DNA of 64,000 nucleotides from Parvularcula dongshanensis (GTDB lineage: Bacteria > Pseudomonadota > Alphaproteobacteria > Caulobacterales > Parvularculaceae). Shown here in pieces: positions 2,595 to 26,970 of this stretch. The translations under genes and the position numbers were made by a program. Location: positions 248,001 to 312,000 of the forward strand of contig NZ_JACHOB010000003.1 of assembly GCF_014199615.1 (NCBI RefSeq). Direction: 5' to 3'. The stretch's first letter is position 1. Every line of letters starts with the position of its first letter. Under the pieces are notes generated by a model. It did no database searches and was not told where the DNA came from. It saw only the letters and a list, made by a program, of their open reading frames with translations.

Positions 2595-3532
<938 letters not shown>

Positions 3533-3609
3533 AAGGCCCCAAGCTTTCGCGCCGGATGGTTGTGACGGCCCGGTGACGGGAGTCAAGCAAGTGGGCGGAC
3601 GCGTTCAAA

Positions 3610-6373: not shown

Positions 6374-6487
6374 GGCACTTCGCACTGCGGTGAAGGGCGC
6401 CTTACCGACCCTCGGACGAGCCGGGAACCCCGTAGGGGCCACTCGGGGCTCGCCCTCCGCTCGTGTCCGCTCGATGTAAGGCAGGCA

Positions 6488-7417
6488 TCACGCGCTGCGG
6501 CGGCGCAGCGCCTGCGGCGGCTGACCGTAAAGTCGCAGAAAGGCGCGGCGCATGCGTTCGGGATCGTAAAAACCGACCTCTCGCGCAATCGCCTCGATGG
6601 GCGCCGCGCTGTCTTCGAGACGGCGACGCGCGGCCTCGACGCGGAGCCGCTCGACGGCCTTGGCCGGCGTCTCCCCGGTCTCCTTGCGGAAGAGCCTGGC
6701 GAACTGCCGTTCGCTAAGGCACGCTTCGGCGGCCAGCCTTTCGACGGAGAGGGACTCGCGAAGGTTCTCGCGGGCATAGGTCAGAACTCGTCTGATCCGG
6801 TCCGTCTCCGGCGCCATCGCCGACAGCGCAGAGAACTGGGACTGCCCGCCGGCGCGGTGGTGGTAGACGACGAGGTACCGCGCCACCTCCCGCGCGAGCG
6901 ATGCGCCCGCGTCCGCTTCGATCAGCGCGAGTGCGAGGTCGATTCCGGCCGTGATTCCCGCCGAGGTCCAGACCCCGCCATCCTCTACGAAGATCGCGTC
7001 CGGCGTCACTCGCACCTTCGGGTAGGCCTCTGAGAGCCTGCGCGCATAAAGCCAGTGGGTCGTCGCCCGGCGGCCATCGAGAAGCCCCGCGCGGGCGAGC
7101 AGGAACGCGCCCGTACAGACGCTGGCGAGGCGGCGCGCGCTTCGTGCGAGCGGGCCGATCGCAGCGACTTCCCGCGCGGCTTGCAGCGCGTCGACGTCAC
7201 CCCCCACGACGATCAGCGTATCGAAGGAGCGACCCGCCGCGCGGACCGTCTCGACCGCCACGCCGGCGCTGCCCGTCAGCGATCCCCCATCGGCCGAGAC
7301 CAGAACGAGGTCGTAGGCCGGACCGCCCGCCGCCCGTGCCGTCTGAAAGGCACAAAGGGGGCCCGACAGGTCGAGGAGCTGATGCCCCGCACAGAGGTAG
7401 AAGCCGACACTCGGCAT
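6488..7417 (-). CDS. GlxA-family transcriptional regulator (DJ-1/PfpI domain + AraC HTH)
   Basis: The N-terminal half is a DJ-1/PfpI fold (MPSVGFYLCAGHQLLDLSGP, with SVCTGAFLLARAG around the nucleophile elbow). The C-terminal ~100 residues are an AraC-type double HTH (SLSVERLAAEACLSERQFAR then FYDPERMRRAF). Start at 7417 is chosen from the family N terminus, giving 309 aa; an in-frame ATG 13 codons upstream is possible. It is divergent from an isonitrile-hydratase-like gene (7494), with about 76 bp between them, so it most likely regulates that gene. This pairing of two DJ-1-fold proteins supports a shared ligand. Confidence 0.9.
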   Translation of the reverse strand: MPSVGFYLCAGHQLLDLSGPLCAFQTARAAGGPAYDLVLVSADGGSLTGSAGVAVETVRAAGRSFDTLIVVGGDVDALQAAREVAAIGPLARSARRLASVCTGAFLLARAGLLDGRRATTHWLYARRLSEAYPKVRVTPDAIFVEDGGVWTSAGITAGIDLALALIEADAGASLAREVARYLVVYHHRAGGQSQFSALSAMAPETDRIRRVLTYARENLRESLSVERLAAEACLSERQFARLFRKETGETPAKAVERLRVEAARRRLEDSAAPIEAIAREVGFYDPERMRRAFLRLYGQPPQALRRRSA

Positions 7418-7493
7418 GGCTGATATCGAGGGTTCCGCGTCGTTCCAGACGAGCATGACCCGGGTTAGCCTTCGTCGCAATCAGGAGGCTCGC

Positions 7494-8192
7494 GTGACCA
7501 CAACCGTCGTCATTCCGCTCTATCCAGGCGTGACCCAACTCGACTTCACCGGCCCGCACCAGTTCCTCGCCCGCATGCCGGACGCGAAGGTTCTGGTCGC
7601 CTCGCGAGGGGGCGCCGACATCGAAGCGGACGGGCTTTGCTTCTCCCGTCTCGCCGACCTCGAGGCCATCGAGCGATGCGATGTCCTCTGCGTGCCGGGC
7701 GGGTGGGGATGCGTCGAGGCGATCGAGGATGAACGCTTCCTGGAGAGCGTTCGCCGCCTGGCAGCAAGCGCGCGCTACCCAGCCTCGGTATGCACCGGCT
7801 CTCTCATCCTCGGCGCGGCGGGCGTCCTGCGGGGACGCCGAGCCGCCTGCGACTGGGCGTGGAGACCGCTCCTGGAACTCTTCGGCGCCATACCGGACGC
7901 GGGCCGGATCGTGCGAGACGGCGACGTCTTCACGGGCGGGGGCGTGACGGCGGGGATCGACCTGTCCCTCGCGATCGTCGCGGCGCTGAGGGGGGAGGAG
8001 GTCGCTCAGGCGATCCAGCTCGGGCTCGAATACGCCCCTGCGCCGCCCTTCGACGCAGGACGCCCGGAACTGGCCCCCCCGCCCGTACGCGCGGCCGTCG
8101 ACGCCGCGATGACGGGGCGATTGTCGGCGCAACACGACCGGATCGCGCGGATCGCCGCCGCCCTTTCGCCGGTCGCCCAAGCGCCGTCTTGA
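7494..8192 (+). CDS. DJ-1/PfpI family protein, isonitrile hydratase-like
   Basis: 232 aa. The GTG start at 7494 has AGGAGG at 7483-7488; the frame is open 26 codons further upstream but only across the divergent regulator's promoter. Motifs are LDFTGP with Asp17 and [13 protein letters not shown] with Cys100, the same placement as in isonitrile hydratase InhA, which converts isonitriles to N-substituted formamides. The usual TTHW after the elbow is CDWAW here, so the substrate may differ. The adjacent divergent GlxA-type gene is its probable regulator. Confidence 0.8.
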
Positions 8193-8311
8193 CCTCGGCC
8201 GCGCGGTCCTTTACCGCCCGGCGCTCGACAACCCGCGCGGCAGAACGCGGGGGCGAAGAAGGCTGGCCGGGCCATAGGGGCGCGCGCCACAGCGAAAAAG
8301 AGAGATTTCCA

Positions 8312-8947
8312 ATGTTCGCAGTCGTCAAGACAGGCGCGAAGCAGTTCCGGGTCGCACCCGGCGACGTCATCAAGGTGGAGAAGCTCGAAGGCGCGGCGGG
8401 TGACACCGTCACGCTGGGCGAGGTGCTCATGCTCGGCGGCGACAGCCCCGAAGTCGGCGCCCCGACCGTCTCCGGCGCCTCCGTGGCCGCCGAGATCCTC
8501 GAGCAGGCCCGTGACAAGAAGGTCGTCGTCTTCAAGAAGCGCCGCCGTCAGAACTACCGCCGCAAGAAGGGTCACCGCCAGCACATGACCGTGCTGCGGA
8601 TCGACGAGATCCTGACGGGCGGCGCGAAGCCGACCGGCGCGAAGGCCGCGAAGCCGGCGCCCGCCAAGCAAGAAGCGTCCGCCGAGGCTGCGCCCGCCGG
8701 CGACGCGCCGACGGATGTCAGCCTGATCGCGGGCGTCGGGCCGAAGCTGAAGGCGAAGATGGCCGAGAACGGCATCGAGAGCCTGGCGCAACTCGCCGCG
8801 ATGGACGACGCGACCAAGCAGAAGCTCGACGATGCCGACCTGCTCGCCCGCGCGGAGCGCGAAGAGTGGCAAGAGCAGGCCAAGGAACTGATGGCCGGCA
8901 AGGCGCCCCGCGCCAAGGTCGACCAGAAGGCGCAATCGGGCGAGTAA
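8312..8947 (+). CDS. rplU: 50S ribosomal protein L21 with helix-hairpin-helix C-terminal extension
   Basis: Residues 1-103 are a complete L21 ([12 protein letters not shown] to VLRIDEI). After it come an Ala/Lys/Pro linker (about 104-134) and a helix-hairpin-helix-like module ([16 protein letters not shown], about 135-150, followed by an acidic helix), for 211 aa against about 103 in E. coli. Such tails are known in alphaproteobacterial L21 proteins and resemble the small HHH domain often annotated next to NADH dehydrogenase subunits. An open frame upstream of the ATG is ignored because the L21 N terminus is diagnostic. rpmA follows 41 bp downstream. Confidence 0.96.
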
Positions 8948-8988
8948 CTAGGTTCAGCCGCGCCTCACCCGCGCGCTAGGAGAGACAG

Positions 8989-9255
8989 ATGGCACACAAG
9001 AAAGCAGGCGGCTCGTCCAGGAACGGCCGCGACTCCGCAGGCCGCAGGCTCGGCGTCAAGAAGTATGGCGGCGAAGCGGTCGTCCCCGGCAACATCATCG
9101 TCCGCCAACGCGGCACGAAGATCCAGCCGGGCTCGAATGTCGGCCTCGGCAAGGATCACACGATCTTCGCCCTGACGCCCGGCACGGTCGTCTTCCGCAC
9201 GACGAAGGACGACCGTAAGGTCGTCAGCGTCGAGACCGCCGCCGCGGCCGAGTAA
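8989..9255 (+). CDS. rpmA: 50S ribosomal protein L27
   Basis: 88 aa, full length, beginning [16 protein letters not shown]. This conserved N terminus reaches the peptidyl transferase centre, and there is no cleavable extension of the Firmicutes type. AGGAGAG precedes the ATG. It is co-directional with rplU, as in nearly all bacteria, and a strong hairpin lies just after the stop. Confidence 0.97.
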
Positions 9256-9277
9256 GCGCACGGCCAGGCCGTCGCGA

Positions 9278-9310
9278 GGGCCCGGCGGGGAACCGCCCGG
9301 GCCCTTCTTC
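9278..9310 (+). terminator. Rho-independent-like terminator after rpmA
   Basis: A GC-rich inverted repeat, GGGCCCGG-CGG pairing with CCG-CCCGGGCCC, with one bulged base and a GGAA tetraloop, followed by a short pyrimidine run (TTCTTC). It begins 22 bp after the rpmA stop. The U-tract is weak, as is usual for high-GC genomes. Confidence 0.7.
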
Positions 9311-9336
9311 GTTCCGGGGTGCGGAAAGAGGGCCGA

Positions 9337-9684
9337 ATGTACCTTCTGCTGAAGGCCGTGCTCTCAGGCGTGCTGATCGCGGCGGCGTCCGAAGCCGCTC
9401 GGCGCTTGCCGGCGCTCGGGGCGCTGATCGCCTCGCTGCCGCTGGTCTCGATCCTCGGCATGATGTGGCTCTGGCGAGACCGTCCCGATCCGGCGAACAT
9501 GGCCGCCCACGCCGCCGCGACCTTCTTCTACGTGCTGCCGTCGCTGCCGATGTTCCTTCTGATCGCCCATTTGTTGCAGCGGGGTTGGAGCTTCTGGGCG
9601 GCGCTCGGCAGCGGCTGCGTCCTAACCGTCGTTCTCTACGCAGCGATGATTTGGATCGGTCCGCGCCTCGGGCTGCCGGTGTGA
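9337..9684 (+). CDS. DUF3147-like small inner-membrane protein
   Basis: 115 aa from the ATG at 9337, preceded by a GAAAGAGGG ribosome-binding region; an in-frame ATG at 9319 gives 6 more residues. About four hydrophobic segments cover most of the protein, with the signature ALIASLPLVSILGMMWLW followed by a short polar loop DRPDPANMAAHA. This fits the DUF3147 family of unknown function. Its stop overlaps the GTG of the next gene (GTGA, 9681-9684), so the pair is probably translationally coupled. Confidence 0.8.
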   Translation: MYLLLKAVLSGVLIAAASEAARRLPALGALIASLPLVSILGMMWLWRDRPDPANMAAHAAATFFYVLPSLPMFLLIAHLLQRGWSFWAALGSGCVLTVVLYAAMIWIGPRLGLPV

Positions 9685-10207
9685 GCGTCCGCCTCACGAC
9701 GCCGCGCCTCGTCCTGCGGCCGCCGGTCCTCGCCGACGCGCAGGCACTCGTCGCCGCGCTCGACCACCGGTCCGTCCTGCGGGAGACCGAGAGCTGGGCC
9801 TACCCCTCGGGCGCTGGTGTCTTCCGAGCGAGGATCGAAGGGTTCGCGCGCCAGGACCCGCGTCACGACGCGACCTTCGCGATCTGCCGGTCCGGCGTGC
9901 CGGTCGGCCTGATCGGCCTTCATCGGCGCAAGCGCCGGGTCTTCGGTCTCGGCTACATGCTGTCGCCGCGCTATGCGGGGCGGGGCCTCGTCACCGAGGC
10001 GGCCGGCGCTGTCTGCGCCTACGGCTTCGAGCGGATGAAGGCCGAAGCGATCGTGGCGAACGTCTTCACGGACAACCTCGCCAGCCGCCGCGTGCTCGAG
10101 AAGACCGGCTTCGACTTCCGCGGCGAGGTGGCGCCAGGGTGGTCCGCGACCCGGCGGGCCAACTTTCCCCGGGTGGAATACGCCCTCGAACGCGCGCAGA
10201 AGGCAGC

Positions 10208-11769
<1,562 letters not shown>

Positions 11770-11831
11770 GGCGGTAGCGCCGCGCGCGAGACTCCTGCCA
11801 AGTGGACGACGTCCGACCCGGAGAGCCCGCC

Positions 11832-13277
11832 TTGTCGCAGCAGACCGTCGTTCTTCTGACGTTGATCCTCTACAAGGTCGCGCTTCTCGGCATCGGCTTC
11901 TGGGCGGCGAGGCGAATGCGGGGCGAGGACGACTTCTTCGTCGGGGGCAGGGGCGTCGGGGGCCTCGTCTCGGGTCTTTCCTACGCCGCGAGCACGTCCT
12001 CGGCCTGGGTGCTGCTCGGCTTCTCGGGCTTCGTCTACACCGCCGGTCTGTCGGCGCTCTGGATGGTGCCGGGCATCCTCGGCGGCTACGTCGTGATGTG
12101 GGTCGTGATCGCGCCTCGGCTGAGCGGCGAGGCGCGGGCCAAGTCGCACGTGACGTTGACGGACTACCTGACGGACGGCCTTGGCGTGCCGGGCGCAAAG
12201 GCCGTCGCGGCGCTGTCGACCGCGCTGACGCTCTTCTGCTTCGTCTTCTACATCGCCGCGCAGTTCGACGCCGCGGCGAAGGCGTTCACCGACCAGTTCG
12301 CGCTCGGACAGACCGAGGCGCTGCTGCTCGGCGCAGGCGTCATCCTGATCTACTCGCTGATGGGCGGCTACTGGGCCGTCAGCGTCACCGACACGCTGCA
12401 GGGCTTCGTCATGGCGGCGGTGGCGATCGGCCTGCCGCTCGCGGCGCTGATCGCGGCCGGGGGTCCGGCAGGCGTCTCGGCCGCCTTGGCCGCCGCGCCT
12501 TCCGACTACGGAACGGCCGCGGGGGGCAGGGGCGCGATGGCGTTCACCGGCTTCGTCCTCGGTGTCCTCGCGATCGGCCTCGGCCCGTTCGGCCAGCCCC
12601 ACCTTCATGCGCGGCTGATGTCGCTCAAAGACGAGCCCGCACGCCGTCGGGGCTTCGTCCTCGCGATGGGCTGGGCGGTGATCGTCTACGCGGGCATGGC
12701 GACGCTGGCGCTCGCCGGGCGCGCCCTGACGGGCGGTGCGCTCGCGGATGGCGAGGTGCTCTTCTACCGGCTGGCCGCCGACGTTCTGCCGCCTATCCTG
12801 GCAGGCATCGTCATCGCGGCGATCTTGTCCGCGGTGATGAGCACGGTCGATTCGATCCTGCTGTCCGCGGCGGCGTCGGTCGCGCACGACCTCGGCTTCA
12901 CGAAGGGGCACCCGGCACGGGCACTGCTGATCTCGCGCAGCGTCATGGCCGCGATCGCGGTCCTGTCCGTCGCGCTGGCACTCAGCCTGCCGGACAGCAT
13001 CTTCAACCGGGTGCTGTTCGCCTGGTCCGCGCTCGGCGCCGCCTTCGGTCCGCTCGTGCTCGCTCGGGTCGCGGGGCGACGGCCGGGAACGGCTACGACG
13101 CTGCTCGCCATCGCGCTTGGTTTCGGCGTCACCGTCTTGTTCTACGTTCTCGGAACGACGGCGAGCGACGATCTCTTGTCGCGAGCCGCGCGACTGGATG
13201 GGGACTCGTTCGAGCGTCTGGTGCCGTGGGTGGTCCCACTGGCGCTCTTGTTCGCCAGTCCGCGCCGAAGCGTCTAA
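11832..13277 (+). CDS. sodium:solute symporter (SSS/PutP family, proline permease-like)
   Basis: Integral membrane Na+/solute symporter with about 12-13 hydrophobic segments. The sequence GRGVGGLVSGLSYAASTSSAW and the later LAIGLGPFGQPH stretch are typical of PutP-type transporters, which suggests proline, but the substrate is inferred. The start is uncertain. TTG at 11832 has GGAGAG at 11820-11825 and begins at the first membrane helix (481 aa); GTG at 11802 would add 10 residues with no clear ribosome-binding site. The stop is the last clearly chromosomal feature before the accessory region. Confidence 0.85.
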   Translation: MSQQTVVLLTLILYKVALLGIGFWAARRMRGEDDFFVGGRGVGGLVSGLSYAASTSSAWVLLGFSGFVYTAGLSALWMVPGILGGYVVMWVVIAPRLSGEARAKSHVTLTDYLTDGLGVPGAKAVAALSTALTLFCFVFYIAAQFDAAAKAFTDQFALGQTEALLLGAGVILIYSLMGGYWAVSVTDTLQGFVMAAVAIGLPLAALIAAGGPAGVSAALAAAPSDYGTAAGGRGAMAFTGFVLGVLAIGLGPFGQPHLHARLMSLKDEPARRRGFVLAMGWAVIVYAGMATLALAGRALTGGALADGEVLFYRLAADVLPPILAGIVIAAILSAVMSTVDSILLSAAASVAHDLGFTKGHPARALLISRSVMAAIAVLSVALALSLPDSIFNRVLFAWSALGAAFGPLVLARVAGRRPGTATTLLAIALGFGVTVLFYVLGTTASDDLLSRAARLDGDSFERLVPWVVPLALLFASPRRSV

Positions 13278-13662
13278 ACACTTTCGACAATGCAAATTGT
13301 ACGACTGTAGGTGAGCCCGTCGCCCGGGCGGGAACTGGACCAACGGCACGATGGCGACCCGGCGCCAAACCGGGTCCAGGTACCTGTTGGCACAGCACTC
13401 CTCCGTGTCCAATCCGGAACAGCTTCGGACGCGCCGATGCGAAATCGATAGTTTCGCTACCGCCTGGAGGGACTGGGATCGTACAGGTCGCGCCTGCCCG
13501 CTGGCAGGAGGAACCGAGGCAGGGTCCGTCATCGGAGCGTATGATGGCGAGCCGTTGACGACCTCGGCCGAAGCGCGCACCACGATGTTGCGGGCTCTAT
13601 CCGGCGCCCGTCCAGGCGATCCCGCCCAAGTCCGGCCAGTTTGCTGCGACCGGGATTCGGCC
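13278..13662. other. 385-bp gene-free stretch between the symporter and chrA
   Basis: I see no convincing gene. A frame stays open through to chrA, but its translation here has no domain character and no ribosome-binding site. A 6-bp inverted repeat (ACCCGG/CCGGGT, 13357-13375) lacks a T-run. This stretch probably contains the left junction of the older accessory segment that carries chrA, but no tRNA-Thr fragment is visible in it. Confidence 0.4.
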
Positions 13663-15042
13663 ATGACCGTAACCACTCAAACCGTCATCCCTGACCAGCC
13701 CGGCGTGCCGCTTGGCAAGGCCGTGCGGGTTTGGTGTCGGATAACCGCCCTGAGCTTCGGCGGGCCTGCGGGGCAGATCGCGGTGATGCACCGCATCCTC
13801 GTCGAGGAGAAGCGTTGGGTCGGCGAGAACCGTTTCCTCCACGCCCTCAACTACTGCATGCTGCTGCCCGGCCCGGAGGCGATGCAGCTTGCGACCTATG
13901 TCGGCTGGTTGCTGCACGGTGTCCGGGGCGGCTTGATCGCTGGCTGCCTGTTCGTCCTGCCGGGCTTCGTCAGCATCCTCGCGCTCAGCATGCTCTATGC
14001 CAGCTTCCAGGACCTCGCTTGGGTGCAGGCGCTCTTCTTCGGGGTGAAGGCAGCGGTGCTCGCCGTGGTGATCGAGGCGCTTGTCCGCATCGGCAAGCGG
14101 GCCTTGAAGACTGCGCCGATGGTTCTGATCGCGGCAGCAGCCTTCGTCGCGATCTTCGTCTTTCACCTGCCCTTCCCGCTCATCGTCGGTTCGGCTGCGC
14201 TCATCGGCGTTGTCGGCGGTTTGCTAGACCCGAACCGCTTCCTCGTCATCAAGGCACGCGAGGTCTCAGGCGACGATGTCGTCGTCGGTAGGCATCATAC
14301 GGGAAGTAGCAGGCCGCCCTGGCGTCCTGCGCTCTCAACCGCGGCGACGTGGCTCGGAATCTGGCTCGCGCCGGTCCTCGGCATCGTGCTGCTAGTGGGA
14401 CCGGACCACGTCTTCAGTCAGCTCGCGATCTTCTTCTCGAAGCTGGCCGTGGTGACCTTCGGCGGCGCCTATGCGGTGCTCGCCTACATGGCGCAGGAGG
14501 CGGTGCAGACGCATGGGTGGCTAGAGCCCGGCGAGATGCTCGACGGGCTCGGCATGGCCGAGACGACGCCGGGGCCGCTCATCCAAGTCGTGCAGTTCGT
14601 CGGCTATCTCGGCGGCTACCGCGAAGCGGGCTCGCTCGGCCCCGTCGCGTCTGGCATCGTCGCATCGATCATCGTGACTTGGGTGACCTTCGCGCCCTGC
14701 TTCCTTTGGATCTTCCTCGGGGCGCCGTTCATCGAGCGGCTTCGCAACGTGGCCTTACTTACGGCGGCGCTCTCGGCGGTCACGGCAGCCGTGGTCGGGG
14801 TGATCCTGAACCTCTCCGTATGGTTCGCTTTGCACGTTGCCTTCGAGGATCTGCGCGAGGTGCGAGGAGCCGGCGGCCAGCTTCTCGTCCCGAACCTGGC
14901 TAGCGTCGATCCGGCGGCGGTCGTCATCGCCGCCTGCGCATTGGTGGCCATGCTGCGATACAAGCTCGGTATGATCACCGTCCTGGCCGTAAGCGCGGCT
15001 GCGGGCATGGCCTACTCTCTCACCGGGCCGATCGGATCCTAA
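13663..15042 (+). CDS. chrA: chromate efflux transporter ChrA
   Basis: 459 aa, a two-domain (long) CHR protein with the two homologous six-helix halves typical of proteobacterial ChrA. The first half opens ITALSFGGPAGQIAVMH and includes NYCMLLPGPEAMQLATY; the second has VVTFGGAYAVLAYM and ETTPGPLIQVVQFVGYL. ChrA exports chromate driven by the membrane potential. The start MTVTTQTVIPDQ at 13663 is chosen because upstream translation is not protein-like. No chrB regulator is nearby. It sits between core chromosome and the integrase element and is probably cargo of an older insertion. Confidence 0.92.
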   Translation: MTVTTQTVIPDQPGVPLGKAVRVWCRITALSFGGPAGQIAVMHRILVEEKRWVGENRFLHALNYCMLLPGPEAMQLATYVGWLLHGVRGGLIAGCLFVLPGFVSILALSMLYASFQDLAWVQALFFGVKAAVLAVVIEALVRIGKRALKTAPMVLIAAAAFVAIFVFHLPFPLIVGSAALIGVVGGLLDPNRFLVIKAREVSGDDVVVGRHHTGSSRPPWRPALSTAATWLGIWLAPVLGIVLLVGPDHVFSQLAIFFSKLAVVTFGGAYAVLAYMAQEAVQTHGWLEPGEMLDGLGMAETTPGPLIQVVQFVGYLGGYREAGSLGPVASGIVASIIVTWVTFAPCFLWIFLGAPFIERLRNVALLTAALSAVTAAVVGVILNLSVWFALHVAFEDLREVRGAGGQLLVPNLASVDPAAVVIAACALVAMLRYKLGMITVLAVSAAAGMAYSLTGPIGS

Positions 15043-15121
15043 CTGCCCGCACGGTATGCGCTCACCTGCTACCGCTTCGAAGGGCCGTCCACCGGGCGCT
15101 TGGCGGCATCCAGAGAGCGAC

Positions 15122-15180
15122 GACGTGCACGTTAGAGGGAACACCCTCTACAAGGTTCCCAGCGCGCAAACCCCGGTGAA
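15122..15180. repeat. diverged copy of the element's right-end sequence, left of attL
   Basis: Starting at ACGTGCACGT the sequence runs in parallel with 28302-28393: shared blocks are ACGTGCACGT, AGAG, GAAC, CTACA, GGTTCCCA and GCAAACCC, interrupted by single changes and a gap of about 34 bp that removes two GGTTCCCA copies. In the present integration this side should be pre-insertion DNA, so it is best read as the right end of an older, related element. Confidence 0.65.
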
Positions 15181-15228
15181 TGCTGGTGCCCCCAGTCCGA
15201 CTCGAACGAACGACCTACTGATTACAAA
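15181..15228 (-). repeat. attL: displaced 3' end of tRNA-Thr
   Basis: 48 bp matching 28394-28441 at 42 positions. Read on the minus strand it gives the 3' half of tRNA-Thr from the anticodon loop through CCA. All six mismatches lie in two triplets that face each other in the T-stem. The 5' half of the tRNA is absent, so this is not a functional tRNA gene. The 18 bp nearest the element (15211-15228) are identical to the other copy and contain the likely crossover. Confidence 0.88.
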
Positions 15229-15294
15229 CCGGCTGCGGCTCTGTACACGCTACGTCCCGGAATTGCACGATTGCCAGTTTCTTGCTGGTGTTCG

Positions 15295-15324
15295 TTGACA
15301 TCGGACCGCATGGTTCGATATAGA
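15295..15324 (+). promoter_or_regulatory. sigma70-type promoter of the integrase gene
   Basis: TTGACA at 15295-15300 is a perfect -35 consensus. After an 18-bp spacer comes TATAGA at 15319-15324 as the -10. Transcription would start near 15331, just before the four ACGGTTCCCA repeats, and run into the integrase at 15407. Confidence 0.65.
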
Positions 15325-15340
15325 ACGAACCTAGAACAGC

Positions 15341-15404
15341 ACGGTTCCCAAGCTCGAGAAACGGTTCCCAGACGGTTCCCAAACTGCCCGCCACACGGTT
15401 CCCA
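15341..15404 (+). repeat. four ACGGTTCCCA direct repeats (putative integrase arm sites, left end)
   Basis: Exact copies of the 10-mer at 15341-15350, 15361-15370, 15372-15381 and 15395-15404, all in the same orientation. They lie between the integrase promoter and its start codon, and the last copy ends 2 bp before the ATG. The same 10-mer occurs three times next to the right att site. Short repeats of this kind flanking att cores are usually arm-type binding sites of tyrosine recombinases or their directionality factors. Confidence 0.7.
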
Positions 15405-15406
15405 AA

Positions 15407-16648
15407 ATGTCTCTGTCGAACGCCGCGCTGACTGTCCCTTCCACCGCCACGGGGCCGATCAAGTTGACCGAGGCGTTCGTCGCGACACTGAGGCCGAACG
15501 GGCGCCGCTACGTCGTCCGGGACACCGAGGTGAAAGGCTTCCTCGTCGCGGTGAACCAGCGCGGGATGAGCTACAAGGTCCAGAAGGATCTCTGGGTCGG
15601 CGAGAAGGGCAACCGGAAGCTCGCCAAGACGGTCCGGCGGACGCTCGGCGAGGTCAGCGTGCGCGAGGCACGGCGGCGTGCGCTCGCCGCCCTCAGCGAG
15701 ATCGGCGCTGGCGTCGACCCCAACGGCACCTACGACCCTGACGGCGCGAAGGCGGAGTCCGCGGGCGGCTGGACGGTCGGGCGGATGTTCGAGGAGTACG
15801 CAGCCGACATGCGAGTCCGCGACCTCGCCTCGCGGACGGTGGTCGACCACATGAAGCGCCTCGACGCCTACCTACCGGACTGGAAGGACCGCCCGATCGC
15901 GAGCGTGAAGCGGTCCGAGTGCCGCGCGCGGCACGCTCTGATCGCGGAGCGGCACGGCAAGACGACGGCGAACCGCGTGCTCGGCGACTTCCGGTCGAGC
16001 TACAACTTCGCGCTGAAGGTTTGCGACGAGGCGGACGAGTTGCCGGGCAACCCCGTCACGGCCGTCAGCTTCTACCGCGAACGGGCGAGCGGCAAGGTGA
16101 TCCTGCCGGACGACCTGCCCGCCTGGTGGACTGCCACCGAGCGGCTGACGAACCCGACCCGCCGCCTCATGCACCGCTTCGGCCTTCTGTCGGGCCTCCG
16201 CCCCGGTACGCTGATGTCGCTCGAGCGGTCCTGGTACAAACGCGACGAGCGCGCAGTCGTCATCCCGAAGATGAAGTCCGGCCGCAGCTTTTCGCTGCCA
16301 CTCTCCGAGCAGATGGTCGCGCTGCTGGACGATGCCGGCCGCGCGGCGGACCTCTTCGCGACCGGGTCGCCCTACTTCTTCCCGACCCGCGGCCGTGACG
16401 GCGCGATTAAGCCGACCGCTGTCGTCAAGGAGAAGAGCATGCCCGGTCAGACCGGGCACATCCTGCGGCACACCCATCGGACGATCGCTCAACGCGCGGG
16501 CCTCGACAGCATCACCGCGCGCCTGCTTCTGGATCACACCGTCCCGGGTATCGATGGGGTCTACGTCCACGAGCGTGCCCTGTTCGACCGGCTGCTCGAG
16601 GCGCAGGAAACCGCAACGGAGAGTATCTCGCGGCTCTGCGCAAGCTGA
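15407..16648 (+). CDS. tyrosine-type site-specific integrase (tRNA-Thr-specific)
   Basis: 413 aa. The N-terminal ~80 residues resemble the DUF4102/arm-binding domain of P4-type integrases, followed by a core-binding region and a catalytic domain. Catalytic candidates are R265 in SGLRPGTL, H355 and R358 in HTHR, H377 in LLDHTVP, and nucleophile Y386 in GVYVHE. It catalyses integration into the 3' half of tRNA-Thr. The ATG at 15407 has no ribosome-binding site, only the ACGGTTCCCA repeats, so translation may be weak or the start may lie elsewhere. Binding of those repeats by the integrase would repress its own gene. Confidence 0.93.
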   Translation: MSLSNAALTVPSTATGPIKLTEAFVATLRPNGRRYVVRDTEVKGFLVAVNQRGMSYKVQKDLWVGEKGNRKLAKTVRRTLGEVSVREARRRALAALSEIGAGVDPNGTYDPDGAKAESAGGWTVGRMFEEYAADMRVRDLASRTVVDHMKRLDAYLPDWKDRPIASVKRSECRARHALIAERHGKTTANRVLGDFRSSYNFALKVCDEADELPGNPVTAVSFYRERASGKVILPDDLPAWWTATERLTNPTRRLMHRFGLLSGLRPGTLMSLERSWYKRDERAVVIPKMKSGRSFSLPLSEQMVALLDDAGRAADLFATGSPYFFPTRGRDGAIKPTAVVKEKSMPGQTGHILRHTHRTIAQRAGLDSITARLLLDHTVPGIDGVYVHERALFDRLLEAQETATESISRLCAS

Positions 16649-16777
16649 GCTGCCGGAGCAAAGGCAGGTCGGGCGGTGTTCGCTTTTGGGGGTAGACGCC
16701 TCGACCATCCTGCAGCAAATAAGTGTCGCGTTCGCAATCTGTGAATGGTCGCCGCGGCACGGCCGACGGGAGGCAAT

Positions 16778-18172
16778 GTGCAAACGGCGATTTATGAGCA
16801 CTCAAAAGCTCCGCCTTTCAAGTGTGGCCAAATTGAATGCGGCGATTCTCTCTCTACACTGGAATATTTCGAGCCATACCCGGTAGATACTTCCGTTGCA
16901 CTCGCCACTCTACTCGAGCGATTTGAGCGTGACGGACAGTCTCTAGAGATCTCTTTTCGCAAGCTCGTATCTTGGATGAAAATTGGCGAGCGTGCCTCGC
17001 ATTATCTACATCCCTATCCGGCAAAGCTGCTACCCCATATCGCCCATTTCTTTCTCGCCAACCACTTGCTCGTCGGCCGTGACGAGATCGTCCTCGACCC
17101 CTTCGCAGGTTCCGGAACGGTAGCCCTCGAAACCATTTTGTCCGGTAGAGCGGCGCTCTATGCAGATGCAAATCCTTTGGGCCGCCTCATCACCGCCGTG
17201 AAGACGAGGTCAATTACTTCAGCTTCGCTCACCTCTGCAGGTACAGAAGTTCGCGCCGCGTTTAGCCGGTCACGGGCACGAAAACGGCCCGATGTTGTCA
17301 ATCTCGAAAAGTGGTTCGACTCGCACGTCATTGCGGAACTCGTTCGTCTTCGGGCAGCGATAAATACCTTAGATGATGATAGCTTACGCGAATTCATGTT
17401 TGTAACTTTCTCGGCTACCTTGCGTAAGGTGAGTAATTCCGATCCACGTTTCTCAGTACCAGTCCGATACCGAGACGGCGAAACTCGTACCCAGACCTCA
17501 GTTACAGATACGTTCGAGGCGCAGCTCGAAACGAACATCACTAGGATGTCCTCGCTCGGACAGATCGCAACCCTCGGAGAGGCTAAGCCAGTCGGTGACG
17601 ATGCTCGGCGATTAACAACCTCTGATGGAAGGCGGCAGCCAGACAATTCTGTCAGCATGATCATCTCATCTCCACCCTACGCCAGTGCGCAGAAGTATGT
17701 CCGTGCTGCTAGTCTTAGTCTTGGCTGGCTAGACCTCGTACCCTCTAAAAACCTCCGTGTGCTGGAAGATAAAAACATCGGACGTGAGCATTATTTGAAA
17801 GCAAGTTGGTCTGAGATCGCTCCAACGGGGATCGACGAAGCGGACACACTTATTGGGGAAATAGCTAAGATAAATTTGTCGCGTGCTAAGATCGTCAACA
17901 ATTACCTGATTGAGATGCGCGCTGCTCTAATGGAAGCCGTTCGCGTTCTTAAGCCGGGAGGCCATTTCGTTATGGTGATTGGGGACAACACTGTTTGCGG
18001 CCGCCGCTTCCCTTCGTCTGAGTATCTTCGCGAGATGCTGGAGGGTATGAACATGACGACAATTCTTTCTCTTATTGATTCGATTCCTTCTCGCGGCTTG
18101 ATGACGCGCCGTCATGCGACCGCCGGGATCATTGCGTCGGAGACGGTGATCGTGCTCCGAAAGGCGTTTTAG
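16778..18172 (+). CDS. site-specific DNA methyltransferase (SPPY motif, likely N4-cytosine or N6-adenine)
   Basis: 464 aa from the GTG at 16778, chosen because GGGAGG lies 4 bp upstream (16768-16773); an in-frame ATG at 16745 lacks one. HYLHPYPAKLLPHI (about 76-88) precedes SAM-binding motif I DPFAGSGT (about 107-114). Catalytic motif IV SSPPYAS is near 298-302, and LKPGGHFVMVIGDN follows. The SPPY form is common in N4-cytosine enzymes. About 185 residues separate motifs I and IV and may hold the target-recognition part. It is the first gene of a four-gene operon with a PRTase-like protein and an AAA ATPase. No restriction endonuclease is recognisable. GC is visibly lower than in the flanks. 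Confidence 0.85.
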   Translation: MQTAIYEHSKAPPFKCGQIECGDSLSTLEYFEPYPVDTSVALATLLERFERDGQSLEISFRKLVSWMKIGERASHYLHPYPAKLLPHIAHFFLANHLLVGRDEIVLDPFAGSGTVALETILSGRAALYADANPLGRLITAVKTRSITSASLTSAGTEVRAAFSRSRARKRPDVVNLEKWFDSHVIAELVRLRAAINTLDDDSLREFMFVTFSATLRKVSNSDPRFSVPVRYRDGETRTQTSVTDTFEAQLETNITRMSSLGQIATLGEAKPVGDDARRLTTSDGRRQPDNSVSMIISSPPYASAQKYVRAASLSLGWLDLVPSKNLRVLEDKNIGREHYLKASWSEIAPTGIDEADTLIGEIAKINLSRAKIVNNYLIEMRAALMEAVRVLKPGGHFVMVIGDNTVCGRRFPSSEYLREMLEGMNMTTILSLIDSIPSRGLMTRRHATAGIIASETVIVLRKAF

Positions 18173-18173
18173 G

Positions 18174-19172
18174 GTGGCAGACACTGACCCGATTTTTGTT
18201 GCCGACGCGTCGACACCTGAGCAGACGTGGGAGATGCTGCGCGTTCGGATCACCGTACTCAGCGAGAGGGTATGGGAAAACCGGAACCAGTGGCCTCAAG
18301 TCGAGGCATGGCTAGCAAACTTCGATGGACGCGCTGGCTTCGAGCCTAAAGTCGAACGATTGCACGCGCTTTTTCTGCTATCCCAGTTCCTATTTATTGG
18401 TAGCGCAGAGACGCGCGTTCTCCTACGGGCAGTCTACCGCGATTTGTTTCTGATCCCTCTCATCCAGGAGGTTCGCTCCTCACTCAGTGGATGCCGAGAT
18501 CCCAAGACTGTCAAGGAAGCAGTCGATAGCGAAATGGCAAAGACCCGATTCCTCGGTGTCGGCAACCCGTCAGAGAGCGGCGTGCACCTTCTCTACTTCT
18601 TCCGGCAGGAAAACAAACTGTCGAAGAAGAATTTTCTCGACTCGGCAGCTGTTTTCTCGTCAGTCATCAACGAGGATGGGAAGATCGAACGTGAACTAGC
18701 TGATCCAGATATTGAACGCTATATATTTGTCGATGATGTTTGTGGATCAGGTAAAACCGCGGTCAAGTACTCTAAAGGAATTATCTCTGAGATACTGTCA
18801 TTACAGCCAAGCGCGAAGGTTTGCTACCTAGCCATGTTTGCGACCCAGAAAGGTATCGAGAAAGTTCGGGCCACCAAGTTTGGCTCCGCAAGTGCCGCGG
18901 TCTTCGAACTGGACGACAGCTATCGCTGCCTCTCACCGAGCGCGCGCATACTTTTTGATGCGCCCGATCATATCGATGCAACTGTGTTGAGAAAAGTTAC
19001 TCTGACCTATGGAACCTACCTACGGCCAGGCTTTCCGGGAGGATGGGATGATAACCAACTGCTGCTTGGTTTCCAGCATAACACACCCAATAACACGTTA
19101 CCGATCATGTGGGCCGAGGGCAGCGCTACCCACCCTTGGACCCCGGCTTTCAAACGCTATGCGAAAATGTAG
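18174..19172 (+). CDS. phosphoribosyltransferase-like conflict-system protein (PRTase-CE type)
   Basis: 332 aa, GTG start one base after the methyltransferase stop. The central motif YIFVDDVCGSGKTA (about 183-196) has the form of a PRPP-binding loop (two acidic residues, then a Gly-rich Thr-containing loop). The N-terminal third is helical. The C terminus ends with PNNTLPIMWAEGS, a loop typical of proteins I know as PRTase-CE, catalogued in bacterial conflict systems. GSGKT could be taken for a Walker A, but the preceding VDDV and strand context favour a PRTase fold. The activity is unknown; plausible roles are nucleotide sensing or nucleotide/NAD+ breakdown. The family name is from memory, not from a search. 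Confidence 0.68.
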   Translation: MADTDPIFVADASTPEQTWEMLRVRITVLSERVWENRNQWPQVEAWLANFDGRAGFEPKVERLHALFLLSQFLFIGSAETRVLLRAVYRDLFLIPLIQEVRSSLSGCRDPKTVKEAVDSEMAKTRFLGVGNPSESGVHLLYFFRQENKLSKKNFLDSAAVFSSVINEDGKIERELADPDIERYIFVDDVCGSGKTAVKYSKGIISEILSLQPSAKVCYLAMFATQKGIEKVRATKFGSASAAVFELDDSYRCLSPSARILFDAPDHIDATVLRKVTLTYGTYLRPGFPGGWDDNQLLLGFQHNTPNNTLPIMWAEGSATHPWTPAFKRYAKM

Positions 19173-19178
19173 GCTCTC

Positions 19179-21179
19179 ATGACTCAGTCGCCAATGGAGA
19201 ACCCATTCGATCTGAATAAGGCCTCTGATTTCACCGATCGAGAGATTGCCGATCAGTGGGTTGATCTAGCCAGTTCGACTGGCGGGCTTGTCGATATCTT
19301 AAATCCAAAATCTCGTATGCCAATGCTTCTCTTGGGTGGTAAGGGAAGTGGCAAAACCCATCTAATGCGTTACTGTTCAGCACCTGTACAGGCCGCGCGC
19401 CACAACCGAGATGTTGCGCAAGCTGCCGTGGCGGAAGGTTATCTGGGCATCTACGTGCCTCTCGATGCGTTGAACACAGATAAATTTGCCCGCGAAGAAC
19501 CTGTCGAAGATTACTGGATTGCTGTCTTTAGCTATTACTTCGAACTGTGGCTTTCGAGTGTTCTACTGAGCACGATCAGAGATTGTGCAAGATCCCAATC
19601 GATTGAGTTTGACGAAACGGAGTTCGTCAAGTCAGCAATTGACCTGTTCGACATCACACCGGAGAATCCGCTAACTAACCTTGATAGCTTATACGATCAC
19701 CTTGCGCAAATGCGAAAGCATATCGATAGCGTCGTAAATAACAGCCGGCTACGTGGTGAGCGCCCGATTTTTGACATCACCTTCTCAGCCGGTCGGTTGA
19801 TTTTTGGGTTGCCTGAACTGGCTACACAGCACGCTCCAGCCATGAAGGACGTTCTGTTTGTGTATTTGATCGACGAGGTCGAAAATCTCACCGCTGATCA
19901 GCAACGTTTCCTGAACTCGTTGATCCGCTACCGACGTGGCAGTGCGACAATTCGTGTTGGCGGACGTCTCTATGGCATGAAAACCCTGGAAACCACCGGG
20001 TCGGGAGAGCCCATCAGAAGCGGTGCCGAATACGAGCGGGTAGTTCTAGATGAGATTCTTCGTCGAGAGTCAGGTCAGTACGATCGCTTTGTAAGGAGTT
20101 TAATCTCTAAACGGCTCGAACGTGCAGGCTATTCTACCGCCGCTCGTGAGCCGATCGATTCATATTTCGAAGAACTCGATTCTCGCGATTACTGGCGCTC
20201 TATCGATAAACATCTTCCGACAACGAAACAAGGTCAGATCACGCCATACCATCAGAAGCTCGCGACAGATTTGAAAAGCGCATTCGGTTTAAAGGATCAT
20301 GAGGTAACTTCGATCTACGAAGCTCTCCAGGTGCCAGAACATAGATTTCTCGAGAAAGCTGCTACATTCCAGTTCAGAAAATCATGGCCTAGTAGTCTAG
20401 AAGACGCCGTTTCCCTCGCTTCAACGGTTGGGAGTCAAGCGCGCGCATTGGCCCAAGGCGATCGTGTAGCTGGCGCTGAACTTGCTAAATTGATATCTTA
20501 CTTTTCAAGCGACATTCTGGCCCAGCTATTTCACGATTATGCCCGACGGTTACCTTATTCCGGCTTTGAGACAATGGTCGAGCTGTCTCAAGGAATAACA
20601 AGAAATCTGCTGGTCAACTTAAAGCACATCTTTAGGCGCAGCCGCTTCGCTGGTGAAGAGCCCTTCATTAGTGGTTCGATTTCGATCAAATCCCAGTCTG
20701 ATGGGGTCCGCGACGGAGCCGCCTGGTTCTGGGAAGACGCGCAGCCCCCTAGCGGCGGGCTTCAAGTACGTGATGCCGTTGAGAATGTCGCGGTACTCTT
20801 TCGCACCGTTCGTCTTGGCCATTCGCCTTCAGAGTGCGCGCTTTGTGCCTTCAGCGTTCCTTGGGAAGCCCTCAGCGATAATAGTAGGCGCACGTTAATG
20901 GTTGCCGAAAACTGGTCATATCTTGTCAAGCTACAGGAAGGCCGACGCAATAAAAACAGTAAGCGGATAGATGCACTCTACCAACTTGGACCTATGCTGG
21001 CACCCCGCTGGGAGGTTTCCCAACATCGTCGTGGTACCATTGAGCTTCAACAAGATCTCGCAGATGCCATACTCGATCCGCAACACCGGCACGAGCTTGC
21101 TACTCTGATGAAGAAACGGTTGGAGCGCATAATACTGCCTGCCGGGTCAAAGACCGTATCCAACCCCCGACTAATCTAA
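19179..21179 (+). CDS. ORC/CDC6-like AAA+ ATPase of a putative defence operon
   Basis: 666 aa, starting 6 bp after the PRTase-like gene. Walker A GGKGSGKTHLMRY at about 53-65. Walker B VLFVYLIDEVENL at about 225-237, with Asp232 and Glu233. A sensor-like strand TIRVGGRLYG follows at about 257-266. The C-terminal ~150 residues include a winged-helix-like segment (ENWSYLVKLQEGRRNKNSKR, then LAPRWEV.HRRGTIEL). This fits ORC/CDC6-like or STAND-like ATPases next to PRTase-CE genes. Inferred role: NTP-dependent sensor or switch, possibly DNA-binding. Codon use is less GC-rich than the chromosome. Confidence 0.72.
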   Translation: MTQSPMENPFDLNKASDFTDREIADQWVDLASSTGGLVDILNPKSRMPMLLLGGKGSGKTHLMRYCSAPVQAARHNRDVAQAAVAEGYLGIYVPLDALNTDKFAREEPVEDYWIAVFSYYFELWLSSVLLSTIRDCARSQSIEFDETEFVKSAIDLFDITPENPLTNLDSLYDHLAQMRKHIDSVVNNSRLRGERPIFDITFSAGRLIFGLPELATQHAPAMKDVLFVYLIDEVENLTADQQRFLNSLIRYRRGSATIRVGGRLYGMKTLETTGSGEPIRSGAEYERVVLDEILRRESGQYDRFVRSLISKRLERAGYSTAAREPIDSYFEELDSRDYWRSIDKHLPTTKQGQITPYHQKLATDLKSAFGLKDHEVTSIYEALQVPEHRFLEKAATFQFRKSWPSSLEDAVSLASTVGSQARALAQGDRVAGAELAKLISYFSSDILAQLFHDYARRLPYSGFETMVELSQGITRNLLVNLKHIFRRSRFAGEEPFISGSISIKSQSDGVRDGAAWFWEDAQPPSGGLQVRDAVENVAVLFRTVRLGHSPSECALCAFSVPWEALSDNSRRTLMVAENWSYLVKLQEGRRNKNSKRIDALYQLGPMLAPRWEVSQHRRGTIELQQDLADAILDPQHRHELATLMKKRLERIILPAGSKTVSNPRLI

Positions 21180-21180
21180 T

Positions 21181-22131
21181 ATGCAATACGATATTGAAGC
21201 GCTGCTCGACGCGAAAATTGATCTGGCGGAGACTGTCGCAAGTGGTCACGAGTGGGATCTGTTTATCTCCGCTTACAATAATAGCGAGCGCGTCCAGTCT
21301 GTTTTTCCTACGATTCCCGCTATCCGGCGAAGCTGGTGGGCAATTCCCGAATATGGCTACACACCCGATGAGCTCCAGAAAGTCTCGGATATAGTTCATT
21401 TAAATCAAGGGTCGGAAGCGCAGGTCGTGAAGTCCGGCTTAATCGGAAGTGGATTTGATCGCACAGCGAACCAACGATTATGTGTCGATATAACTGGACT
21501 GATGCGAACACATATTCTCTTTCTCATGGCGTATCTTCAAGACGCGGGCGTATCCCATTTCGACCTTCTCTATACCGAGCCTGCGCAGTATTCTCGGCGC
21601 GCCGAGACACGCTTCTCCATCGGCGAAGACGTACGCGTTGTTTCAGTCGAAGGGTACGTAGGTACCCATGAACTTGATACGAGCGGTGACCTGCTGGTGG
21701 TTGGCATCGGCTACGATCACCACCTCATTTCGCATGCGATCCAGGCGAAGGAAAATGCTCGCGTCATTGAGCTGCATAGCTTTCCTTCGCTTAGCGCTGA
21801 TATGTACCACGAAAGCATCTTAAGACTCGATCGGGTAAGCAGCGAACGATCTCGGCTTAGCGAGGATGTTCATTACGCTAGTGCGAATGATCCGTTCGTT
21901 GTGGCCGCTTCCCTGGCAGCGGCTGTAAAGAGTGCAGAAATGCGTCGGCGCATTACAAATGTGTACCTCTCCCCACTCGCAACTAAGCCTCAAGCCGTAG
22001 GTTTTGGACTGCATTATCTCAAAAGGATGCGTGGAAGCGCCACATCGATCGTTTACCCAGTGCGCGAAAGCTACGACAAGGAAACATCGACTGGAGTAGG
22101 ACGTTCTTGGATCTATCCGATCCATTTGTAG
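21181..22131 (+). CDS. uncharacterised Rossmann-like protein, fourth gene of the defence-like operon
   Basis: 316 aa; the ATG follows the ATPase stop by one base, so it belongs to the same operon. I do not recognise a named family. Visible features: EWDLFISAYNNSERVQSVF near residues 24-42, which recalls the first strand of TIR-like folds; CVDITGLMR (101-109); YTEP (131-134); GIGYDHHL (175-182); DPFV (237-240); and LSPLATKPQAVGFG (263-276), which looks like a ligand-binding loop. The alternating hydrophobic strands suggest two Rossmann-like halves. It could be the sensor or the effector of the system. No membrane segment or signal peptide is seen. Confidence 0.6.
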   Translation: MQYDIEALLDAKIDLAETVASGHEWDLFISAYNNSERVQSVFPTIPAIRRSWWAIPEYGYTPDELQKVSDIVHLNQGSEAQVVKSGLIGSGFDRTANQRLCVDITGLMRTHILFLMAYLQDAGVSHFDLLYTEPAQYSRRAETRFSIGEDVRVVSVEGYVGTHELDTSGDLLVVGIGYDHHLISHAIQAKENARVIELHSFPSLSADMYHESILRLDRVSSERSRLSEDVHYASANDPFVVAASLAAAVKSAEMRRRITNVYLSPLATKPQAVGFGLHYLKRMRGSATSIVYPVRESYDKETSTGVGRSWIYPIHL

Positions 22132-22663
22132 CATCCTGCCTGTCACTTAAGCCGCCTGCCGCGGTCTGGATGAGTACACAGTTAGGGACAAGACCAGGAA
22201 GCATTTACCCTTCGGATAGCGGGCCGACTTGAACCGAGGACGCTAGCCGCACCCGTAGCAATACGATCTTATCGTGGTCCTTAGCCGCACTGTAGAGGAC
22301 GGGCCGCCGCACCACGCCGTCCGGCGGAGGCGTCCCGCATACGGGGCGCCGGGACCGGATGACGGACTCGCCGCCATCCGCACCTGTCGTCGCGCGCTTC
22401 GTGCCCTGCCGGGCGGTGGGGGGTGGCCGCTGCCCTCCCCCCGCAAGCGAAACGAAGATGACCCGTGACGGCTCGCGGGGCGTCGCCCTGCGTTCGCCTT
22501 CGGCCCCTGATCGGGCCCTCGCCTCCCGCGCGCCGCTGACCGCTCGGCCGTCCGCGCCACGTCGTCAGGTTTCGCTTGGCACCCCCCGCCCGCTCCTCGC
22601 CGGAGAGGCAGGGGTGATGACGGGGCCATCACTCCCTGCCCCGATCATCGAGGAGAGAAGACG
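22132..22663. other. 532-bp gene-free stretch before ardA
   Basis: Composition changes here from the lower-GC cargo back to high GC. Translations in all frames look like noise and none has a ribosome-binding site. It should contain the end of the cargo operon and the promoter of the ardA transfer operon. I see no clear terminator, tRNA fragment or phage repeat. It may also mark the edge of a cargo replacement. Confidence 0.4.
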
Positions 22664-23230
22664 GTGACGAGCACGACGACGGAACGAGAAGAGCAGCAAG
22701 CCGCCTTCACGCCGCGGGTCTACCTGGCCTGCCTGGCGAGCTACAACGCCGGCATCCTGCACGGCGCATGGGCGGAGGCGACCGACGAGGACGCCTTGCG
22801 CGAGGCAGTCGCGGCGATGCTGGCGGACAGCCCAACCGCCGGCGCTGAAGAGTTCGCGATCCACGACCATGAAGGGTTCGGGTCATGGGGACCGGACGAG
22901 TACGAGGGACTGGCCGACGTTGCAGCCAAAGGCGCGTTCATCGCCGAGCACGGTCCGCTCGGCGCGGAGGTACTGGCGCACTTCTCCGGGCGGCTCGACG
23001 AGGCGGAAGCCGCCTTCGACGAGTATGCGGGCGAGTGGCCGGACCTCGGGCATTTCGCTGAGGACCTGACCGAGCAGTCGGGCGTCACCATCCCCGACAG
23101 CGTCCGCCTCTATGTCGACTACGACGCGATGGGGCGGGACCTCGAGCTCGGCGGAGATGTGTTCACGGTCCGAACCAACTTCGACGCCGTGCACGTGTTC
23201 TGGACCGCACGGTGGGGGGCGGGACGATGA
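22664..23230 (+). CDS. ardA: ArdA antirestriction protein
   Basis: 188 aa from a GTG with AGGAGAG at 22651-22657. It matches the ArdA pattern: YLACLASYNAGILHGAW at the N terminus, EEFAIHDHEGFG in the middle, then DEYEGLADVA and the C-terminal LYVDYDAMGRDLELGGDVF. It is very acidic, as expected for a DNA mimic that blocks type I restriction enzymes during transfer. First gene of the transfer module, coupled to the next ORF through ATGA. Its presence together with a putative defence operon means the element both carries and evades host-style immunity. Confidence 0.93.
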   Translation: MTSTTTEREEQQAAFTPRVYLACLASYNAGILHGAWAEATDEDALREAVAAMLADSPTAGAEEFAIHDHEGFGSWGPDEYEGLADVAAKGAFIAEHGPLGAEVLAHFSGRLDEAEAAFDEYAGEWPDLGHFAEDLTEQSGVTIPDSVRLYVDYDAMGRDLELGGDVFTVRTNFDAVHVFWTARWGAGR

Positions 23231-23481
23231 GCGAGATGCACCCCGCACCGAACCACAGCACGGGGGCGGCCGAGTCGTTCGGTCCCCCTTCCCTGCCCGA
23301 CGCCTATGCATGCGGCGCGATCAATGCGCGGCATGCAGCGCGCGAGGCAATGGCGCTCGCGGCGCACCGCGTCCGTATGAGCGGCGGCAAGGGCAGCCTG
23401 GCCGCCCGCCGCGCGCTCGCTCTGGCGGACGTCGCCGTGCACGAGGCGATCACCCGCCTGATCGAAGGGGGCGAGCGATGA
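23227..23481 (+). CDS. small hypothetical protein of the transfer module (84 aa)
   Basis: Starts at ATG 23227 overlapping the ardA stop (ATGA) and ends overlapping the next start (ATGA, 23478-23481). It is Ala-rich and helical with a basic centre (RMSGGKGSLAARRALALADVAV). I do not recognise it. The two 4-bp overlaps are the main support that it is translated. Confidence 0.65.
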   Translation: MSEMHPAPNHSTGAAESFGPPSLPDAYACGAINARHAAREAMALAAHRVRMSGGKGSLAARRALALADVAVHEAITRLIEGGER

Positions 23482-23702
23482 GCCGACCCGAACGCGAGGC
23501 GGAGGCCACCGCGATCGGCCTTCAGACGCTTGTGGACGGCGTGCGGCCGATCACCCTCGCCGACCGGCTGGCCGTCCGCGCGGCCGAGCCGATGCGGCCG
23601 CGGCGCGATCCCTACGCGCGGCAGAAGGCCTGCGACCTCGGCCTGTTCGACGAGGTGGGGCGGGCGCAGATCGGCCTCGTGGACTTGCTGGCCAACAGCT
23701 GA
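23478..23702 (+). CDS. small hypothetical protein of the transfer module (74 aa)
   Basis: Begins MSRPEREAEATAIG at 23478, coupled to the preceding ORF. It is a charged helical protein with PITLADRLAVRAAEPM and LGLFDEVGRAQIGLVDLL. The family is not recognised. It lies between ardA and the DUF2840 gene, a position where small uncharacterised genes are usual in alphaproteobacterial ICEs. Confidence 0.6.
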   Translation: MSRPEREAEATAIGLQTLVDGVRPITLADRLAVRAAEPMRPRRDPYARQKACDLGLFDEVGRAQIGLVDLLANS

Positions 23703-23813
23703 CCCGACCGCGACCGGCAGCGCTTTCCACCGCCTGCCGGTCCGGGGCCGCGATCGAAGCGGCACGGGCCATCGAAGCCCCTGCCGCGTCCCGCCGCGCA
23801 GGAAAGACCAAGG

Positions 23814-23846
23814 GGGGACGAAAGTCGCGCCGTCCCCTTCGTCCCC
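23814..23846. repeat. 9-bp inverted repeat upstream of the DUF2840 gene
   Basis: GGGGACGAA at 23814-23822 and TTCGTCCCC at 23838-23846 are perfect arms with a 15-nt loop. It lies in the 217-bp gap before the DUF2840 start. It could be an operator, an attenuator-like hairpin or part of a transfer origin; the sequence does not decide. Confidence 0.4.
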
Positions 23847-23919
23847 TCCCTACACCGCCTCGCCAGACCATCCTTCTGGTCGTCGCCACCCATGCGGCGG
23901 AAGTTTTGGAGGGACGGGA

Positions 23920-26782: not shown

Positions 26783-26970
26783 GCACCGCGTGCGGATCGA
26801 GCCGGACGCAATTCCGTCCGAAGGGAAGAAGGCCAGGCGCGTTGCCTGTCTGCCACGCAACGAACTTTCTGCACGAGCTGGCGCGCACGCAAATGCCCGC
26901 TGCGTCCCAGCAGTACACGGAACGACTGTGAGGGAGCCAGCGAGCAAAACTGTGCATTTGCGCCGTACCG

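Follow-up and report, generated by a model that had tools for sequence, protein, structure and literature searches.

What stood beside this tRNA-Thr gene before the element that now interrupts it arrived? The window, by which we mean the whole 64,000-nucleotide stretch of Parvularcula dongshanensis DNA that was analyzed, carries a 13-kb element, here called element B (15229-28396), inserted in tRNA-Thr. The preliminary description claimed that DNA outside the left boundary of B, at 15122-15180, aligns with the right end of B itself (28302-28393) across a 34-bp gap, and it read this as the trace of an older related element that had left a chromate transporter gene behind. When the two end regions were aligned, as had been proposed there, the similarity was confirmed. 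Positions 15122-15183 pair with 28301-28396 in two collinear blocks separated by a single gap of 34 bases, with 50 of 62 bases identical (a non-overlapping count that leaves out the tRNA). The first block (28301-28340 against 15122-15161) is identical at 33 of 40 bases and the second (28375-28396 against 15162-15183) at 17 of 22, above the controls given below. Repeat finding returned the same relationship, pairing 28291-28340 with 15112-15161 (80%) and 28363-28449 with 15150-15236 (83%), the latter match continuing into the tRNA. The homology fades left of 15122, where 28270-28300 and 15091-15121 share 17 of 31 bases and none is clear. We refer to 15122-15183 as the relic, taking it to be what remains of the right end, on the attR side, of an earlier related element (element A). 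The relic and the right end of B (28301-28396) lie in the same orientation, and each is flush with a tRNA-Thr 3′ half.

Two small features are common to both ends. The palindrome ACGTGCACGT occurs at 15123-15132 in the relic and again at 28302-28311 in B. The right end of B has arm-type repeats at 28333, 28345, and 28367, and the relic has a lone survivor, GGTTCCCA, at 15154-15161. This repeat lies 68 bases from the anticodon core, the same offset as the repeat at 28367. The shorter motif GGTTCCC occurs eight times within the relic and the two ends of B; the rest of the window has only two further copies on this strand (41164 and 62024). The 34 gap bases are present in the right end of B and missing from the relic, and their number equals the distance from the first right arm to the third (28333 to 28367). 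In its left part the relic follows arm 1, and in its right part arm 3, which is the outcome expected of a deletion between repeats.

We then asked how far this homology exceeds chance. The best ungapped score was 166, compared with a maximum of 91 among 500 dinucleotide shuffles, and under overly lenient gap costs the observed score of the gapped alignment was reached by none of 2,000 shuffles. Positions 15150-15183 match at 28 of 34 bases, while 20,000 random stretches of the window reach at most 19 of 34. As the homology of 15122-15183 stands above all controls, it is counted in favor of two elements.

The tRNA halves at the site carry a second line of evidence. The displaced tRNA-Thr 3′ half (15184-15228, reverse strand) forms the attL of B and the core side of the attR of A. 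It ends in the 18-bp direct repeat CGACCTACTGATTACAAA (15211-15228), which reaches the anticodon loop and has its second copy at 28424-28441, and the 11-base core CTGATTACAAA is found in the window only at 15218 and 28431. Of 29 relative loci, seven have an intact tRNA-Thr identical to the displaced half at 45 of 45 bases, five in the genus (L005, L006, L013, L016, and L017) and two in the family (L007 and L023), and another genus genome (L026) matches it at 44 of 45. The displaced half is thus of the genus type, meaning the commonest in the genus and not the sole one: two of eight intact genus tRNA-Thr loci (L015 and L018) carry another 3′ half (38 of 45), and the contigs of G008 also show the L015/L018 type. 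The working gene, tRNA-Thr(UGU) at 28397-28472 (reverse strand; ARAGORN, Rfam 72.9 bits), has a 3′ half that differs from the displaced one at six positions (39 of 45 identical) and is unlike all 29 relative loci (37 to 41 of 45). None of 366 other genomes of the class contained an exact copy of a 36-base piece of this present half. When the present 5′ half was joined to the displaced 3′ half, the product was called as tRNA-Thr(UGU). From these sequences, the simplest reading is that the working gene is chimeric, with a 3′ half supplied by the element and a host 5′ half, the earlier 3′ half having been displaced by a crossover inside the 18-base repeat. Since the displaced half is of the genus type and the present half is not, the DNA left of 15184 adjoined the tRNA before B came. 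Because the 3′ halves within the genus are not uniform, we can only infer the type that the window strain originally had.

The spacing of the arm repeats was compared with that of related elements. B encodes a tyrosine integrase (15407-16648, forward strand; PF00589, E = 6.8e-07, 29.7 bits against a cut-off of 27.1), and one scan of Alphaproteobacteria gave 21 loci with relatives of it, 19 of them 50 to 58% identical in the best segment and two outlying (L074, 38%; L077, 31%). The left end of B (15229-15406) has arms at +121, +141, +152, and +175 from the anticodon core (15343, 15363, 15374, and 15397), and its right arms are at −102, −90, and −68. In six relatives with measured right ends, the right arms lie at −81 and −69 in four, at −81 alone as far as recognized in L064, and at −68 alone in L068, so that the last right arm is at −69 or −68 in five of the six. 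Left arms were measured in 18 relatives; eight have them at exactly +118, +129, and +152, eight others have at least two within two bases of these places, and L067 and L068 have arms at +139 and +173, L067 also at +150. The single arm of the relic lies at −68, matching the last right arm of B. Thus, the relic has the attachment-arm spacing of this integrase family.

In a search for other carriers of such arms, a tandem-arm pattern of GGTTCCCA was found in none of 384 other genomes of the class. Among viral contigs, 47 stretches match a looser arm pattern and three match the tandem-arm pattern. The 47 were only filtered, by requiring either at least two motifs or a tRNA-like start no more than 40 bases away, and none of the three filtered stretches was convincing as a carrier of GGTTCCCA arms. 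None of the three tandem-arm contigs encodes a window protein (E ≤ 1e-5) or has its repeats next to a tRNA; in one of them (L172) a tRNA-Thr lies about 4.3 kb from the repeats.

Taken together, we consider it likely that two elements of the same attachment-site type entered the anticodon loop of tRNA-Thr(UGU), one after another. A would have inserted first, leaving its right end (15122-15183) adjoining a rebuilt tRNA with a genus-type 3′ half. A would then have decayed, with the integrase and left end gone and two right arm repeats lost; the simplest route would be a deletion joining repeat 1 to repeat 3, which lie 34 bases apart in B. B would later have recombined in the rebuilt tRNA and landed between the right end of A and the tRNA, pushing out the tRNA 3′ half of A as 15184-15228 and supplying its own, different half. 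What adjoins the relic on its left, beginning with chrA, would then be the interior of A. We infer this order of events, the deletion between repeats, and the role of chrA as cargo of A. Several points count against two elements: the homology spans just 62 bases, no left end or integrase of A was seen, the tRNA halves of the genus are mixed, and the region is rearranged relative to the genus.

Could the relic instead be a local duplication of the right end of B together with its tRNA 3′ half? The identical order of parts and the identical flush boundary with the tRNA would fit such an event. However, outside the tRNA the two copies disagree at 12 of 62 aligned positions, and a recent copy would have the tRNA half of B, whereas the half beside the relic is of the genus type. 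We regard a duplication as very unlikely. Less credible still is that the similarity reflects ordinary DNA downstream of tRNA-Thr, a terminator or a conserved spacer, that B captured. Both copies do lie flush with tRNA-Thr 3′ ends, as this would predict, but when the corresponding 34 bases were taken from relatives at 29 tRNA-Thr places, they matched the relic at no more than 14 of 34 and the right end of B at no more than 15 of 34. These places are the best-scoring relative loci and not all tRNA-Thr genes, and two of them (L005 and L006) are not element-free, since the tRNA there adjoins other elements or integrase genes. A search with the right end (28270-28450, E ≤ 1e-18) found it in none of 298 other genomes of the order; of the 299 genomes searched with its own included, only its own matched, at both places. 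The preliminary description had held that similarity common downstream of tRNA-Thr genes would speak against an older element, and this was looked for in these two comparisons and was absent. The arm repeats and their spacing also recur with the integrase family.

A further alternative accepts that an older related element left its right end here and denies the chrA step alone, with chrA arriving separately or being placed there by a deletion or inversion; its probability overlaps with that of the preferred reading. The neighborhood of the genus is rearranged (eight genomes lack Obg or the symporter near the tRNA, and blocks in G002 are moved and inverted), the left boundary of A was not located, and six chrA relatives have no arm repeats nearby, all of which would fit this account. 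Against it, chrA is just 79 bases from the relic and is foreign to the genus. We judge a separate origin of chrA possible, though the less probable course. Returning to two successive elements with chrA inside the older one, if the rest of that explanation holds, chrA is rather probably the cargo of A: were the relic the end of A, chrA would lie inside A unless a later rearrangement placed it there.

The gene itself is clear. chrA (13663-15042, forward strand) encodes a chromate efflux transporter (PF02417, E = 3.8e-76; TIGR00937), and chromate transporter models cover nearly its whole length. It is absent from all nine other genus genomes at E ≤ 1e-60; at the same threshold, 7 of 60 genomes of the family have it, counting the window's own. 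The closest of its plasmid relatives is 73.9% identical. The end of chrA lies 79 bases from the start of the relic. In positions 1-15121 of the window, no second tRNA-Thr 3′ half, arm cluster, or left end of A was recognized. The best match to an integrase remnant of A in the same interval covers 61 residues (10507-10668, E = 0.009), lies on the strand opposite the open reading frames 10139-10735 and 10540-11769, and is not convincing. Among the genomes searched, none had A by itself or an empty site, and none was recognized as a strain of the same species. We also looked for an intact A through chrA, as the preliminary description had suggested in asking for intact relatives of the chrA segment bounded by the same end. 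The six chrA loci examined (L176 to L178 and L082 to L084), some of which cover only about 1.5 kb per side, have no tRNA and no GGTTC[CG]CA arm nearby, and no relatives of this kind came to light. Thus, one part of the original proposal stands, that a related end lay beside tRNA-Thr earlier, and the other, chrA as its leftover cargo, is only consistent with the data.

The wider neighborhood was then read in the genus, using window proteins presumed to be Obg, a symporter, and TrxR. Neither Obg nor the symporter (E ≤ 1e-12) lies near tRNA-Thr in any of the eight genus genomes read (L098 to L105), and the uninterrupted symporter/tRNA-Thr junction that the preliminary description had asked for was not found. 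G002 is the only one of the eight with a run of window genes beside tRNA-Thr. In G008, which is fragmented, the relatives of TrxR (L113) and of the symporter (L117) and the pieces of tRNA-Thr (L114 to L116) are all on different contigs. The symporter (E ≤ 1e-10) is downstream of Obg in none of four sister regions (L200 to L203); what does follow Obg differs among G002, G004, and the pair G006/G007, the last two having an epimerase-like gene in common. Block 30288-33808 has switched sides of tRNA-Thr between G002 (L099) and the window, and block 42283-46550, which follows Obg in G002 (L200), is inverted in the window. A rearrangement breakpoint therefore probably lies near the tRNA (window 10500-46550 compared with G002). 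G002 also has a different stretch of 6.3 kb (L099, 5965-12419), bounded on one side by tRNA-Thr and on the other by a displaced 3′ half of the type seen in the window. This stretch begins with an open reading frame that looks integrase-like by eye, and the integrase of the window does not match it at E ≤ 1e-12.

Like an IME, element B brings an integrase of its own and has att sites within its target gene. Downstream of the integrase is a cargo of four genes (16745-22131, forward strand) for a DNA methylase, a PRTase-CE, an ORC-CDC6-like protein, and a CARF6-type protein, assigned with Pfam and PADLOC; the CARF6-type protein was recognized by PADLOC only, having no Pfam match. This cargo is possibly a defense system. 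The PRTase-CE is PRTase III-A like, and the G+C content of the 1-kb intervals starting at 17000-21000 is 0.49 to 0.53, below the surroundings. An ArdA antirestriction protein (22664-23230, forward strand; PF07275, E = 9e-34) and a relaxase near RlxS with DUF3363 (24773-26782, forward strand; 634.7 bits to RlxS, below the curated cut-off of 850) follow. The product of 26971-27774 (forward strand) has a TraG-like N-terminal stretch limited to residues 22 to 90 (NF010450, E = 5.8e-11, 41.3 bits, far below the curated cut-off of 674) and no Pfam match outside it. It may perhaps be a truncated coupling gene from a conjugative element. With a relaxase and no mating-pore gene among the nine open reading frames typed, B looks mobilizable, judging from its gene content.

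The relatives of the integrase of B differ in how they treat the tRNA. A displaced tRNA 3′ half upstream of the integrase was recognized by pattern in 16 of the 21, with three arm repeats between it and the integrase in 14 of these and two in the others. Their arms are mostly GGTTCG, whereas those of B are GGTTCCCA. Six of the seven visible right ends (L060, L061, L064, L065, L068, and L076) contain a complete tRNA-Arg, followed by one or two arms and then the 5′ half of the host tRNA-Arg, which is split in the anticodon loop and whose broken 5′ half in L076 is damaged. The window lineage and L074, in contrast, rebuild the tRNA by a 3′ half: L074 has an intact tRNA-Arg(ACG) and no arms, and its displaced fragment is by eye the 3′ half of that tRNA, an ordinary restoration. 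Joining the host halves gave a call of tRNA-Arg with the anticodon of the spare in three of four cases (L060, L065, and L068, and not L064); L061 and L076 were left out of this count, one half being unrecognized in each. In G214 (L065), an assembly rated 89% complete, this search found no complete tRNA-Arg(UCU) other than the one borne by the element. We found no description of islands carrying a complete tRNA in the open-license literature searched. Up to 400 bases left of attL (fewer were available in L057, L059, and L064), no arm motif was found in 15 of 16 relatives, and L069 has a single match. None of the other genes of B lies beside the integrase relatives within the available flanks (E ≤ 1e-6). 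It is tempting, if doubtful, to see one integrase family working in two ways, by carrying a spare whole tRNA and leaving the host gene broken or by rebuilding the gene with a 3′ half. Since rebuilding re-creates the target at the edge of the element, it alone would permit tandem accretion. If true, this would explain why a relic is stacked here but not beside the 16 relatives checked.

The work of Pavlovic et al. (2004) is reportedly associated with tandem accretion of ICE/IME. At the site described here, the end of the older element abuts the att site of the newer one in the same target, and A and B share both the target gene and the orientation of insertion. The available parts of an IME review (PMC5704250) set out tandem accretion with decay of the older ICE or IME as a three-step model, accretion at tRNA-Asn genes is described for Klebsiella (PMC4891358, as far as its accessible text goes), and the portion of the Islander study at hand counts 125 tandems of two or more in 3,919 islands (PMC4383910). 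Compared with the model in those parts of PMC5704250, A is seen with one att side (attR) only. Because only that side is seen, A is not shown as a CIME by the definition in PMC5704250, under which both attL and attR are kept. As with the islands of PMC4383910, in the sections consulted, a tRNA gene, a displaced fragment, and an integrase are the marks of the site, and the anticodon loop is a listed place of crossover. The tandems in those sections differ in being recognized by an integrase and a tRNA fragment for every member, so that the relic would go uncounted. This suggests that surveys demanding an integrase for each tandem member would miss such relics. Cargo such as chrA could be stranded in the chromosome by as simple a step as the loss of arm repeats. 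Tandem accretion with decay is thus a known process, and this site is a new, well-marked example of it and no new kind, in which one genome shows elements piling up at a tRNA gene and the displaced fragment gives the order of insertion.
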